A DNA stretch of 64,000 bases from positions 7,800-71,799 of the forward strand of contig JAHFHC010000003.1 of the NCBI GenBank assembly GCA_023247085.1, in the 5' to 3' direction. This DNA is from Microcaldota archaeon. Lineage in GTDB: Archaea > Micrarchaeota > Micrarchaeia > Norongarragalinales > UBA8480. Every line of letters begins with the position of its first letter. Position 1 is the stretch's first letter. The notes under the pieces are model-generated. The model saw only the letters and a list, made by a program, of their open reading frames with translations, was not told the DNA's origin and did no database searches. Shown here piece by piece: positions 3,887 to 60,173 of this stretch. The position numbers and the translations under genes were made by a program.

Positions 3887-3910
3887 TTCAACCTTTTGAA
3901 TGGTTTGAAA

Positions 3911-4507
3911 ATGGTAAAAAAAATTCCTGCAAAGGCTGAAGTGAACAACACCAGTAAAATGGTGAGTCCTACAAAGCAATTAGCTGGGGAATTAACTCTT
4001 TTTATAAAGGAACTTGCTGGCGAAGAAGGCGTTCAAATAATCTCGTGTATTGGCGACAGTGGAACAACTGACGATAAGATTGAAGAAGTTACAAAAATGA
4101 AAATCGCAGAGATACGCTCTGTGTTAAACCACTTGCATAGCTATGGACTAGTAGAATACACTAGGGAGAAAAATTTGCAGACGGGGTGGTTCACTTACAC
4201 TTGGCGGCTAAATGCAAACCGTGCATTGCAAAACTTCTTAGTTTTAAAGAGACGCGAATACGAAAAATTACGCACAAAGCTGAGCAGTGGGGATGGCGTT
4301 CAGTTATACCGTTGTCAAAAAAGCTGTAATTGTTTAGAGTTTGAAAAAGCAATTGAACTCGGTTTCCGCTGTCCGGGTTGCCGCGGTAAATTAAATGTAG
4401 TGGATCAAGAAGAAGAATTATTAAAACTTGAACGAAAGATAACTTCATTAACAAGTGTAACTCAACTGTCAACCTCGGATTTTTCAAGCCGCGTATTACA
4501 AAGTTAA
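3911..4507 (+). CDS. tfe: transcription factor E, alpha subunit
   Basis: Helps RNA polymerase open the promoter, together with TBP and TFB; the archaeal relative of TFIIE-alpha. The protein has an N-terminal winged-helix domain (about residues 20-100, with EIRSVLNHLHSYGLVEYTRE as the recognition and wing part) and a C-terminal zinc ribbon with C-x3-C-x-C and CPGC clusters at about residues 135-160, the normal TFE order and length. I chose the ATG at 3911; an in-frame TTG at 3896 is less likely. Confidence 0.92.
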   Translation: MVKKIPAKAEVNNTSKMVSPTKQLAGELTLFIKELAGEEGVQIISCIGDSGTTDDKIEEVTKMKIAEIRSVLNHLHSYGLVEYTREKNLQTGWFTYTWRLNANRALQNFLVLKRREYEKLRTKLSSGDGVQLYRCQKSCNCLEFEKAIELGFRCPGCRGKLNVVDQEEELLKLERKITSLTSVTQLSTSDFSSRVLQS

Positions 4508-25099: not shown

Positions 25100-25678
25100 T
25101 TAGTATTCGTTTTCATCGCGCTTTGGGGCTTTTGTAAACAAGTAGTATTTGCTGTCTCCCCGCATTTCTTCAATTACTCGTTGAGTGAAAACTTCGTCAA
25201 TGCTAGTTACGTGTGCTACGCGTGAATGGAAATCTGCAAAACTTGCAAATGGTTTTTCAGTTCTACTGGCGATAATAGCATCCAAGTGCTTTTTGCCAAT
25301 TCCAGGTAATAATTCCAGCATGTGGCTGCGTATGCTAATTGGGCCAGCGCGGTTGAGAAATGCGACGAATTCCGGTTCCCTTGCTAATACTATTGTGTGA
25401 ACTGAGTCGTGTAAATAGTTTTGGCTTCCGGTTGTTAAATCCGCGTAAGTGATTCTTCCTTTAATGTGGTCAACTTCTTTGCGCTCTTCTTTACCAATAT
25501 AAGTGCGTTGTCCGCGGCTAAGTGAAGTTCCTGGCCGAGTGACGATTTCGAGTAGAGTAAAGTTAAGCTCTCCAAGTACTTGTGCAACTGGTTCCTTCGT
25601 TGCTTCGCTTGATTTGCCGTGGGGCAAAAAGTCCAACACGATTACAAATTCTTCTTTCCTTGGAAACATATTCGACAC
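25100..25678 (-). CDS. DUF655 protein, helix-hairpin-helix RNA/DNA-binding
   Basis: A conserved archaeal protein of unknown role, normally encoded after rpl21e and rpoF, as here. The 192 residues contain EEFVIVLDFLPHGKSSE at the N-terminus, a beta region, and a helix-hairpin-helix LELLPGIGKKHLDAIIASR near residue 125. The neighbours point to a function in transcription or translation. Confidence 0.85.
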   Translation of the reverse strand: MSNMFPRKEEFVIVLDFLPHGKSSEATKEPVAQVLGELNFTLLEIVTRPGTSLSRGQRTYIGKEERKEVDHIKGRITYADLTTGSQNYLHDSVHTIVLAREPEFVAFLNRAGPISIRSHMLELLPGIGKKHLDAIIASRTEKPFASFADFHSRVAHVTSIDEVFTQRVIEEMRGDSKYYLFTKAPKRDENEY

Positions 25679-25733: not shown

Positions 25734-26195
25734 TCACTCTGTTTTTTCGTCTGTTGTATCTTCAGCGGCATCTGCGGTTTTTTGTTTTTCGCTTTCGCCA
25801 TCTGCATCTTGTGGTTTTTCAACTTCTTTTGGAGCAGGTTCAACTTTCTTAGTTTTAGCTGGTTCCTTTGCGTCTTTCTTGTAACTCTTTACAATTTCAA
25901 ATGCTTTTTTCAATACGCTGTCTTCAATAGCCCCGCTTCCTGCAAGTACGATTTTCAATTCTTCTTCCTTTTTCGGCAATAAATCAGTTGCTTTAACCGC
26001 CTGCCATTCAGTAAACCCAATTCCTTTTAGTTCCTTCACCATTTTGTCGCTGTCTTTGTCATCTAGTTTAACTAAATCTTCCAAGTAATTCAATGTATTT
26101 TGTTGTTCGTATGAAAGATTGCCTTGTTTTTGACGGTCTTTCAAAAGTCCGTGTGCTTCATTTACTGTGATTATGCGTTCAGTAGTTACTTGCAT
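25734..26195 (-). CDS. rpoF: RNA polymerase subunit Rpo4 (RpoF)
   Basis: Forms the polymerase stalk with Rpo7. The first 105 residues follow the family: ERIITVNEAHGLLKDRQKQG, YEQQNTLNYLEDLVKL, and a helical domain ending near EIVKSY. About 45 further residues are Lys/Glu/Pro-rich and then acidic; such a tail is not usual in Rpo4. The order L21e-rpoF-DUF655 is conserved across archaea and confirms the call. Confidence 0.88.
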   Translation of the reverse strand: MQVTTERIITVNEAHGLLKDRQKQGNLSYEQQNTLNYLEDLVKLDDKDSDKMVKELKGIGFTEWQAVKATDLLPKKEEELKIVLAGSGAIEDSVLKKAFEIVKSYKKDAKEPAKTKKVEPAPKEVEKPQDADGESEKQKTADAAEDTTDEKTE

Positions 26196-26219: not shown

Positions 26220-26486
26220 TCAAATTGTTTCCAAATGAATTGGCGCAACAACCAGTCGTTTAACTGCATTTAAGTCGCGAAATTCAATTATGTAGCCTTT
26301 ACCTTGTCTTGCAATTACTTTAGCGGTTCTGCCATTAAACCTAAGTGGCAAAGCTCCCTTGCTGCCGTCTACGCGAAGCCTAACTCCTGATCCGATCTCG
26401 AAAGTGCGGAGCATTGTAGTTATGCCTCTACGCTTCTTTGTAATTTTGCGGCTGCGCTTAGAATAAAATCCATGACTACGTTTCAT
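26220..26486 (-). CDS. rpl21e: ribosomal protein L21e
   Basis: A large-subunit protein of archaea and eukaryotes. The 88 residues begin with the conserved basic MKRSHGFYSKRSRKITKK, followed by GSGVRLRVDGSKGALPLRFNG and a KGYIIEFRD strand. I chose the ATG at 26486; the in-frame extension upstream does not resemble the family. It heads the L21e-rpoF-DUF655 operon. Confidence 0.93.
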   Translation of the reverse strand: MKRSHGFYSKRSRKITKKRRGITTMLRTFEIGSGVRLRVDGSKGALPLRFNGRTAKVIARQGKGYIIEFRDLNAVKRLVVAPIHLETI

Positions 26487-27063: not shown

Positions 27064-27372
27064 ATGGCAGCTAAAAAACCACTACCTAGGATAAATATGT
27101 CTTTTAAAGTGGAAAACATAGTCGCTTCGGCGAACCTCAATGTGGAACTTGATCTCTTCAATATTGCTATGGAAGTTGACAACGTTGAATATGAACCAGA
27201 ACAATTCCCCGGCGCAATCATGAGATTAAAGGAACTTGGTACAACTTTGCTGTTGTTCAAGAATGGCAAAGTCATATGTTCTGGTGCAAAAAGCGAAAAA
27301 CAAATCGCACAAAGCATTAAACGCGCAGTTGAACTACTAAGAAAATACATGATGGCCAGACCATCTGCATAA
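27064..27372 (+). CDS. tbp: single-repeat TATA-binding protein (half-length TBP)
   Basis: TBP bends DNA at the TATA box to recruit TFB and polymerase. Normal archaeal TBP has about 180-190 residues and two similar repeats in one saddle. This protein has 102 residues and only one: FKVENIVASANLNVELDL (like the start of repeat 1), then VEYEPEQFPGAIMRLKE and GKVICSGAKSEKQI (closest to repeat 2). It ends at a clean TAA, and nothing TBP-like follows in any frame, so it is not a frameshift of a full copy. To bind DNA it would need to dimerise. A full-length tbp elsewhere cannot be excluded. Confidence 0.9.
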   Translation: MAAKKPLPRINMSFKVENIVASANLNVELDLFNIAMEVDNVEYEPEQFPGAIMRLKELGTTLLLFKNGKVICSGAKSEKQIAQSIKRAVELLRKYMMARPSA

Positions 27373-27939: not shown

Positions 27940-28058
27940 GCGATAGCGGCCATAGGAGAGTGGAAATACCCAGTCCCATTTCGAACCTGGAAGTCAAGCA
28001 CTCTAACGGCACTCCCAGTACTGTTGTGATCAACGGGAACAGAAGCTGCTGCTATCAC
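27940..28058 (+). rRNA. rrf: 5S ribosomal RNA
   Basis: About 119 nt. The ends GATAGC and GCTATC form helix I. Conserved blocks are GCGGCCATAG, CCCAGTCCCATTTCGAACCTGGAAGTCAAGC (loops B and C, given by position 27969-27999) and the CAGTACTG-type loop E/helix IV region. There is no 16S, 23S or tRNA beside it, so it is a stand-alone 5S gene with its own TATA box. The trm5 gene converges on it. Confidence 0.95.
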
Positions 28059-41116: not shown

Positions 41117-41213
41117 TAAACTCTGCTTGTTTTAAAACCGCTTTCGCCTTATCAATATTGGCATATCCTGTAGCTATGGTATGCTACAAAACGATTTGAA
41201 AAGGTGAGTGTTT

Positions 41214-41597
41214 ATGAACCCGAAACTAGCTGAAGTTGTTGCGTATTTGAAAAGAGGCAAGTCAAAGCCTGCAATTGCGCTAATTGAAAAACACGGATTG
41301 CACGAAAATGAAATTGCTGCGTATTTGAAAAGAGGCAAGTCAAAGCCTGCAATTGCGCTAATTGAAAAACACGGATTGCACGAAAAAGGGGCCGAACTTC
41401 TTGAGCGTGGAGGCTGGCCTGGCCCTGCTGGTGATCATTATCTACGCGCAGCAAACTTAGAGGCCAGTAAAGCAAAGATTGATCATGACAAATACCGGAG
41501 ATTGTTAGCTAAAGCCGGAACTGCATATACTAATGCTGGACTGGGCGGTCAGGCTGAAGATGTCGTAAAAAGGCTTAGAATTTTGGCTTCAAGGTGA
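41214..41597 (+). CDS. small helical protein with internal tandem duplication
   Basis: A 127-residue protein. A 26-residue unit, with AAYLKRGKSKPAIALIEKHG as its core, is repeated twice in tandem, followed by a helical region with alternating Ala (GDHYLRAANLEASKAK and AGTAYTNAGL), which looks like a TPR- or HEAT-type helical pair. The duplication is nearly perfect at DNA level, so recent. AGGTG at 41202-41206 supports the ATG at 41214. Its end overlaps the prenyl synthase start by 4 bases. Confidence 0.7.
   Translation: MNPKLAEVVAYLKRGKSKPAIALIEKHGLHENEIAAYLKRGKSKPAIALIEKHGLHEKGAELLERGGWPGPAGDHYLRAANLEASKAKIDHDKYRRLLAKAGTAYTNAGLGGQAEDVVKRLRILASR
41241..41386 (+). repeat. 68-bp perfect tandem repeat inside a coding region
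   Basis: Bases 41241-41308 and 41319-41386 are identical, with a 78-base period that keeps the reading frame (26 codons). Perfect identity at silent sites implies a very recent duplication or an assembly artefact. Confidence 0.9.
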
Positions 41598-59273: not shown

Positions 59274-60173
59274 CTAGATGCTTACTTTTAACCCAAGTGC
59301 TTTCTTTAGCTCGCGGTATCGATTGCGTATTGTAACTTCAGTTACGCCAGCTACATCTGCAACTTCTTTTTGTGTCCTGCGTTCACCAGTCATTACACTT
59401 GCAATGTAAACTGTTGCAGCTGCGACTCCCATTGGGCCACGTCCGCTGATTAAACCGCGTTTTAATGCCTCGTCTAGGATTTCAATTGCTTTTGTCTGCG
59501 TGTCTCCACTTAATTTAAGTGCAGTGACGAAACGGTTGATGTAAAAACGCGGGTTCGTTAATGGTACCTTGAGTTCCAATTCTTGTGTAATCAAACGGTA
59601 TGTGCGGCCAATTTCTTTTTTCGGAATTTCAGCAACATTTGAGATCTCATCAAGCGTGCGCGGAATGCCGTATTGCCTGCAGATTGCGTATATAACTGCA
59701 CTGACCACGCTTTCAATTTGTCTTCCGCGAATTAATCCGCGTTCAACGCATTTCCTGTAAAGCAATGCACTTGACTCGCGAATACTTTCAGTTAAACCCA
59801 AATGGCTTGCCACTCGATTTAATTCTGTGAGTGCAATGGCGAGGTTGCGTTCAATGCTGTTTGAAATTGAAGCGCGTTTGTGCCATTTGCGCATGCGGTA
59901 AAGCTGAGCTTGTTGTGAAGGTGCGATTTTTCCACCGCGTACGTCTCGGTTATACTGGTCAATTTCAGTTACTAGTCCCTTGTTTGGAGACATGTATTTT
60001 AATGGCGCTCCAGTGTGGGCACGAGCGTTGCGTTGTTCAGTGTCAAAAGCTCTCCATTCCGGGCCTTCTTGAACTATATTTTCTTCAAGTACTAATCCAC
60101 ACGAATTGCAAACTAGTTCTCCACGTTCAGAGTCTTTTTTCAACGATTGTCCTTGGCATTCTGGGCACTTCAT
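59274..60173 (-). CDS. tfb: transcription initiation factor TFB
   Basis: Bridges TBP-DNA and RNA polymerase. The 299 residues have the N-terminal zinc ribbon (KCPECQGQSLKKDSERGELV with CNSCGLVLEE), the B-finger GPEWRAFD, and two cyclin repeats, the second ending in AATVYIASVMTGERRTQKEV with a helix-turn-helix GVTEVTIRNRYRELKKALG. Length is normal. gar1 lies one base upstream on the same strand. Confidence 0.96.
   Translation of the reverse strand: MKCPECQGQSLKKDSERGELVCNSCGLVLEENIVQEGPEWRAFDTEQRNARAHTGAPLKYMSPNKGLVTEIDQYNRDVRGGKIAPSQQAQLYRMRKWHKRASISNSIERNLAIALTELNRVASHLGLTESIRESSALLYRKCVERGLIRGRQIESVVSAVIYAICRQYGIPRTLDEISNVAEIPKKEIGRTYRLITQELELKVPLTNPRFYINRFVTALKLSGDTQTKAIEILDEALKRGLISGRGPMGVAAATVYIASVMTGERRTQKEVADVAGVTEVTIRNRYRELKKALGLKVSI

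Follow-up and report, generated by a model that had tools for sequence, protein, structure and literature searches.

TATA-binding protein (TBP) ranks among the most highly conserved archaeal and eukaryotic proteins and is, to our knowledge, described throughout as a two-repeat protein; an ancestral TBP homodimer has hitherto been a hypothesis. The 64,000-nucleotide stretch analysed here (the window) carries a gene for a TBP of only 102 residues. The locus raises the question of whether a single repeat can serve an archaeon as its TBP and, if so, how it would act and where it came from.

The 102-residue TBP and its fold

The genes of the window that bear on this question, and the elements of the TBP itself, are as follows.

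3896..4507 (+): TFE (alpha subunit)-like protein; NF004910 111 bits and TIGR00373 98 bits, both under the curated cut-offs
25100..25678 (-): presumably a DUF655-like protein; synteny, with no NCBIfam assignment over cut-off
25734..26195 (-): RNA polymerase subunit Rpo4 (RpoF); PF03874 at 24.6 bits, just under the cut-off of 25.6, and synteny
26220..26486 (-): ribosomal protein L21e; Pfam PF01157, a conserved neighbour of TBP
27064..27372 (+): one-repeat TBP; intact open reading frame (ORF), ATG start, TAA stop, 102 residues
59274..60173 (-): TFB; PF00382 twice in one ORF, NF001658 436 bits against a cut-off of 384

Residues 13-95: TBP repeat
Residues 19-24: strand S1
Residues 31-37: helix
Residues 43-50: stirrup, YEPEQFPG
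Residues 51-55, 60-64 and 69-75: strands
Residues 78-98: long helix

The Pfam TBP profile PF00352 matches the protein once and over its full length (profile positions 1-85 of 85, 99.6 bits, E = 9e-29), bearing out the single repeat that the preliminary description had seen, and NCBIfam models of full-length TBP reach 59-89 bits against cut-offs of 181-347. No second TBP repeat lies 3' of the gene, as had also been claimed; the next gene is a 5S rRNA at 27942-28057 (+), followed by unrelated genes. The whole 892,562-base assembly (92% complete), searched with the profile in all six frames, yielded no other TBP, the remaining first-look candidates all falling under threshold; the same profile recovered the canonical TBP in 4 of 4 archaeal control genomes. 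Since the short length and the single repeat recur in the relatives, the data rule out, to the extent that they can, both findings that the preliminary description named as refuting it, a normal tbp elsewhere in the genome and an assembly error. That the gene is such an error, a truncation or a pseudogene could be suspected from the draft state of the assembly (36 contigs), but the ORF is intact and lies well inside a 71.8-kb contig, and a gene of similar length, with one repeat and at the same locus, recurs in more than 60 other genomes, one of them a single contig. We consider an artefact next to impossible.

The AlphaFold model of the monomer (mean pLDDT 82.7) shows the strand-helix-strands-helix order of one TBP repeat. 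By Foldseek, it matches the human TBP core 1c9b with a TM-score of 0.76 (query) and an rmsd of 0.9 Å over 81 columns, and some 80 residues superpose at about 0.9-1.2 Å on a single half of TBPs from humans, plants and archaea, with 40-46% identity to the canonical repeat. All matches with E ≤ 0.001 are TBPs or TBP complexes, and the closest solved relatives are all two-repeat TBPs. Canonical TBPs, in which PF00352 occurs twice (S. acidocaldarius 1mp9, P. woesei 1ais, M. jannaschii 2z8u), thus share with the window protein the repeat fold, the intercalating Phe pair and the stirrup motif, and both come from genomes with a normal TFB; they differ in having two repeats per polypeptide. By repeat sequence and fold, then, the product of 27064-27372 is a TBP; by the number of repeats in its chain, it is not a TBP of the usual kind. 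The N-terminal domain of bacterial RNase HIII also has a TBP-like fold in single copy and is a weak fold match (TM-score 0.32, E = 0.1). That domain is part of a nuclease, not a transcription factor, and is without the TATA-contact and TFB-contact motifs.

Conservation among one-repeat TBPs falls on the functional surfaces of the fold. Across 134 one-repeat domains, N18, Y43, E44, P45, Q47, F48, P49, G50, F65 and G68 are invariant, and V20 and E46 are at 99%. Included here are the minor-groove and kinking residues, an asparagine, a valine and two phenylalanines (N18, F48 and F65 at 100%, V20 at 99%), and the TFB/TFIIB-binding stirrup YEPEQFPG, which is of the repeat 2 type and conserved at 99-100% at each position. 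The stirrup is as constant here as in canonical second repeats (R2); of the canonical first repeats (R1), by contrast, just 44% carry Glu at position 44. Strong conservation extends to the first strand, the one by which a canonical TBP repeat pairs with its partner, and Ala51, Lys66 and Asn67, rare or absent in canonical repeats, are fixed. Judged by these positions, the 102-residue TBP retains the residue sets that would bind and bend TATA DNA and recruit TFB.

One-repeat and two-repeat TBPs among relatives

The close named relatives of the protein come from Candidatus Micrarchaeota MAGs (one labelled Marsarchaeota and one an unlabelled archaeon) and from two Diapherotrites-labelled MAGs. Of the 29 genomes in the window's order, the window's own included, 26 have a TBP match, and all 26 have exactly one full repeat; an additional match in G008, of 31 positions only and within a 1340-residue ORF, was left aside. 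A survey of the phylum (251 genomes, all of one class) gave a TBP match in 237. One one-repeat gene per matched genome is found in families f1-f7 (f6 without a match), f9, f11, f17, f19 and f26, and one or more in f12 and f14, while f10 nearly always has two, unlinked. G155, a single contig of 771,545 bases from another family, has one one-repeat gene as its only TBP. Two-repeat ORFs of about 185-264 residues occur in families f8, f13, f15, f16, f18, f20, f24 and f25. In the Diapherotrites-labelled sister phylum (that of L046), one-repeat genes of 88-124 residues prevail, in one to three copies, the exceptions being G271 and G272, with multi-repeat proteins, and G277, whose ORFs are longer. 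Among the best matches listed for other archaea, two-repeat TBPs are the norm; G360 has a one-repeat TBP of 90 residues, and the seeming single-repeat TBPs of G495, G479 and G069 were discounted on account of their position at contig ends. The one-repeat TBP is therefore common to the whole order, to most of the class (Ca. Micrarchaeota) and to the sister phylum, and a recombination private to this genome, as the preliminary description had entertained, does not account for it.

The genomic position of the gene is equally widespread. L21e is the first gene of an L21e-Rpo4-DUF655-like cluster that runs divergently from TBP and marks the TBP locus across the phylum; this arrangement holds in the window and at most one-repeat loci, in the phylum's two-repeat members and at most loci of the sister phylum. 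Because they occupy the same locus, the one-repeat and two-repeat forms are orthologous. The two-repeat TBPs of other Micrarchaeota (L085-L091, L201-L209) share both this locus and the sequence type of the window protein and differ in carrying two repeats per chain, both of the one-repeat type.

Two trees bear on the direction of change. In a tree of 117 repeats (only 85 columns, with many unresolved forks), a branch supported at 100/95 separates canonical R1 and R2 from all one-repeat domains and from the halves, first and second alike, of two-repeat TBPs in the group, canonical R2 forming one group (100/94); the two halves of L158 pair together, as do those of L203. Halves of the group's two-repeat TBPs are 49-81% identical to each other (mean 67), compared with 39-55% (mean 48) in canonical TBPs. 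In a tree of the neighbouring L21e, Rpo4 and DUF655 genes (79 loci, 372 columns), with G360 and nine one-repeat loci from the sister phylum as the root, all 16 two-repeat loci fall in one clade nested among one-repeat loci; the clade's support of 94/90 falls slightly under the 95/80 mark, and it includes a one-repeat family (L010, L028). This nesting makes the two-repeat TBPs here most simply re-duplications of a one-repeat gene, and within Micrarchaeota and the sister group they look derived. Concerted evolution could also have made the halves similar, yet alone it does not account for outgroups that have one repeat at this locus. Fusion to two repeats arose inside Micrarchaeota, and two sister-phylum genomes (L158, L159) have it too. 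G152 holds an apparently very recent duplication, an in-frame tandem that is identical at 99 of 105 nt and whose first copy is cut by the contig end.

Family f10 and parts of f14 hold two unlinked one-repeat paralogs (for example L075/L076, L077/L078 and L081/L082). Paralog A shares E17 and A61 with canonical R1, and paralog B shares Q17 and V61 with canonical R2. With B nested among one-repeat sequences, this echo of R1 and R2 looks like parallel evolution, and the A/B pair may be a step towards a heterodimeric TBP.

Several further TBP genes depart from these patterns. A 96-residue one-repeat TBP (L106/L223, in G068) occurs in the otherwise two-repeat family f16, on a large contig and with no second repeat after it, and looks like a reversal. 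G272 encodes an unusual 679-residue reading frame with four divergent TBP repeats (L199, G272:C8:8800-11500) as well as L158, a two-repeat TBP of 377 residues whose long tail is rich in Lys, Ala and Pro. At L215 (G138:C12) and L200 (G244:C3), single TBP-like domains that are very divergent (41-42 bits) stand beside ordinary one-repeat TBPs. G252, of family f10, has a canonical-looking 185-residue two-repeat TBP (L048, G252:C43) in addition to two one-repeat genes; it is among the canonical rows of the tree and was not used as evidence, as contamination or transfer is possible.

Origin of the one-repeat state

On these trees, one repeat is the ancestral state for Micrarchaeota and its sister phylum, and the remaining question is how that ancestor came by it. 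The preliminary description had the protein begin like repeat 1 and continue like repeat 2. Position-wise log-odds against 29 canonical first and 33 canonical second repeats instead gave a mosaic with no single switch point, and mean identity is equal, at 41% to R1 and 41% to R2. An origin by crossover from R1 to R2 was rejected on these grounds.

The phylogeny of TBP repeats proposed in that description was run as well, and it gave the one-repeat domains a group of their own beside R1 and R2. In the free tree, their neighbours are some of the canonical R1 sequences (95/87), which suits a derived form; a topology in which R1 is held together, with the one-repeat domains outside it, is not rejected by the AU test (p 0.398), and loss and an ancestral-like state are not separated by it. 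That result, the equal distance to R1 and R2 and the separate grouping would all suit a primitive TBP, from before the duplication, kept in the Micrarchaeota/Diapherotrites lineage and compatible with a homodimer. The position of DPANN archaea near the archaeal root in some published trees would suit it too. Besides the placement beside some R1, the other small-genome archaea of the survey speak against this: L153, L154, L161 and L164 are canonical R1-R2 TBPs, so a primitive state would need the duplication to postdate the split of Micrarchaeota and its sister from these lineages. A primitive origin is in our view unlikely, and so, to the same degree, is its corollary that two-repeat TBPs arose independently here and in other Archaea and Eukarya. 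Because small-genome archaea in the same survey also carry canonical TBP, loss is favoured, and the one-repeat state probably arose by loss of a repeat from a canonical TBP.

Mode of action and significance

Known TBP structures show the first strands joining the two repeats and TFB/TFIIB holding the stirrup of the second repeat. The window encodes what is a genuine one-repeat TBP, the sole TBP found, together with TFB and a TFE-like protein, so the protein most plausibly acts as a homodimer. We put at about three in four the probability that it is the housekeeping TBP, that a homodimer rebuilds the saddle and that the gene probably goes back to the loss of a repeat; the single repeat, the lack of a further TBP match, the distribution, the conserved motifs, the common locus and the derived placement of the two-repeat forms are observed, and dimerisation, strand pairing, the source of directionality and loss as the origin are what we infer. 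The TFB at 59274-60173, the only one in the genome and with two normal cyclin repeats, is the predicted partner of the dimer. The preliminary description had counted both TFB and TFE among the genes encoded here: the TFB scores above its NF001658 cut-off, and the other gene is TFE-like only, under its cut-offs.

In the proposed mechanism, each subunit would form one half-saddle, a concave sheet that presents Asn18 and Val20 to the centre of the TATA box, and its Phe48/Phe65 pair would wedge open one end of the box. Two subunits would pair by their first strands, as R1 and R2 do in ordinary TBP, giving a saddle of true two-fold symmetry. Each subunit would supply a TFB-binding stirrup (YEPEQFPG), and a TFB site would lie on either side. 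Because both stirrups are equivalent, such a TBP could not itself set direction, which would instead come from a single, normal TFB, through its contacts with flanking DNA, and from the promoter sequence. The one-repeat state would have been present in the common ancestor of Micrarchaeota and the sister phylum, probably after loss of a repeat; some descendants would then have gained two separate genes, candidates for heterodimers, and others a new, fused two-repeat TBP.

Promoters were compared by a motif search upstream of tRNA genes. TATA-like TTTTTAAA boxes, A/T-rich, lie about 30-36 bases upstream of tRNA genes in the one-repeat genome G155. Across the five genomes searched, the dyad symmetry of such boxes is no higher in one-repeat than in canonical genomes; the set from the window's genome (12 sequences) was too small to yield a TATA motif. 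In that genome (92% complete), only 11 tRNA matches (L248-L258) out of 97 first-look candidates are over threshold, and several of them span 108-141 bases; its tRNA genes are likely to be rich in introns or split. The 5S rRNA gene directly 3' of the TBP gene stands alone, with a TTTTTATA box about 30 bases upstream. Elsewhere in the window, a small ORF (41208-41597, +) contains a stretch of about 22 residues (AYLKRGKSKPAIALIEKHGLHE) that is repeated in tandem almost exactly.

Two other modes of action were weighed. In keeping with the one gene and one repeat of the genome, a single subunit might sit alone as a half-saddle on half a TATA box while TFB, which is complete and could take over more of promoter recognition, holds the rest of the promoter. 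The strongly conserved first strand would then stay open, though, and neither the fusions in Micrarchaeota and two genomes of the sister phylum nor the near fixation of paired paralogs in f10 would be expected if one unit sufficed. The repeated fusion of two copies is the best indirect sign, and argues, that the working unit is two repeats; we think a lone subunit distinctly unlikely. The other mode assumes a heterodimer in every species, the partner being another TBP-fold protein so divergent that it escaped the profile. The two unlinked A and B paralogs of f10 and parts of f14 lend this some colour, as do the divergent TBP-like domains of G138 and G244. It sits poorly with the profile's success in all four control genomes and with the one full repeat per matched genome throughout the window's order, the other candidates in the window's own genome being under threshold; we hold it to be very unlikely. 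The homodimer remains the reading that we prefer.

For a TBP made of two chains, the poxviral VITF-3 was considered as a precedent and rejected, since it is a TBP/TFIIB pair and not two TBP halves (PMC12917281). TBP has been described as two repeats (PMC7289017), and in DPANN archaea it has merely been counted as present (PMC8407392). The open-access literature, to which our search was confined (subscription papers lay outside it), yielded no report of a one-repeat archaeal TBP. Curated full-length TBP models miss these proteins in annotation.

One-repeat TBPs that apparently work span a phylum-level lineage. With it come living intermediates, from one gene through two paralogous genes to fresh tandem fusions at the same locus, and re-fusion in some relatives would replay the duplication thought to have created TBP. 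Both the origin of TBP by duplication and the assembly of a directional complex from what would be a symmetric TBP are now open to direct experiment.
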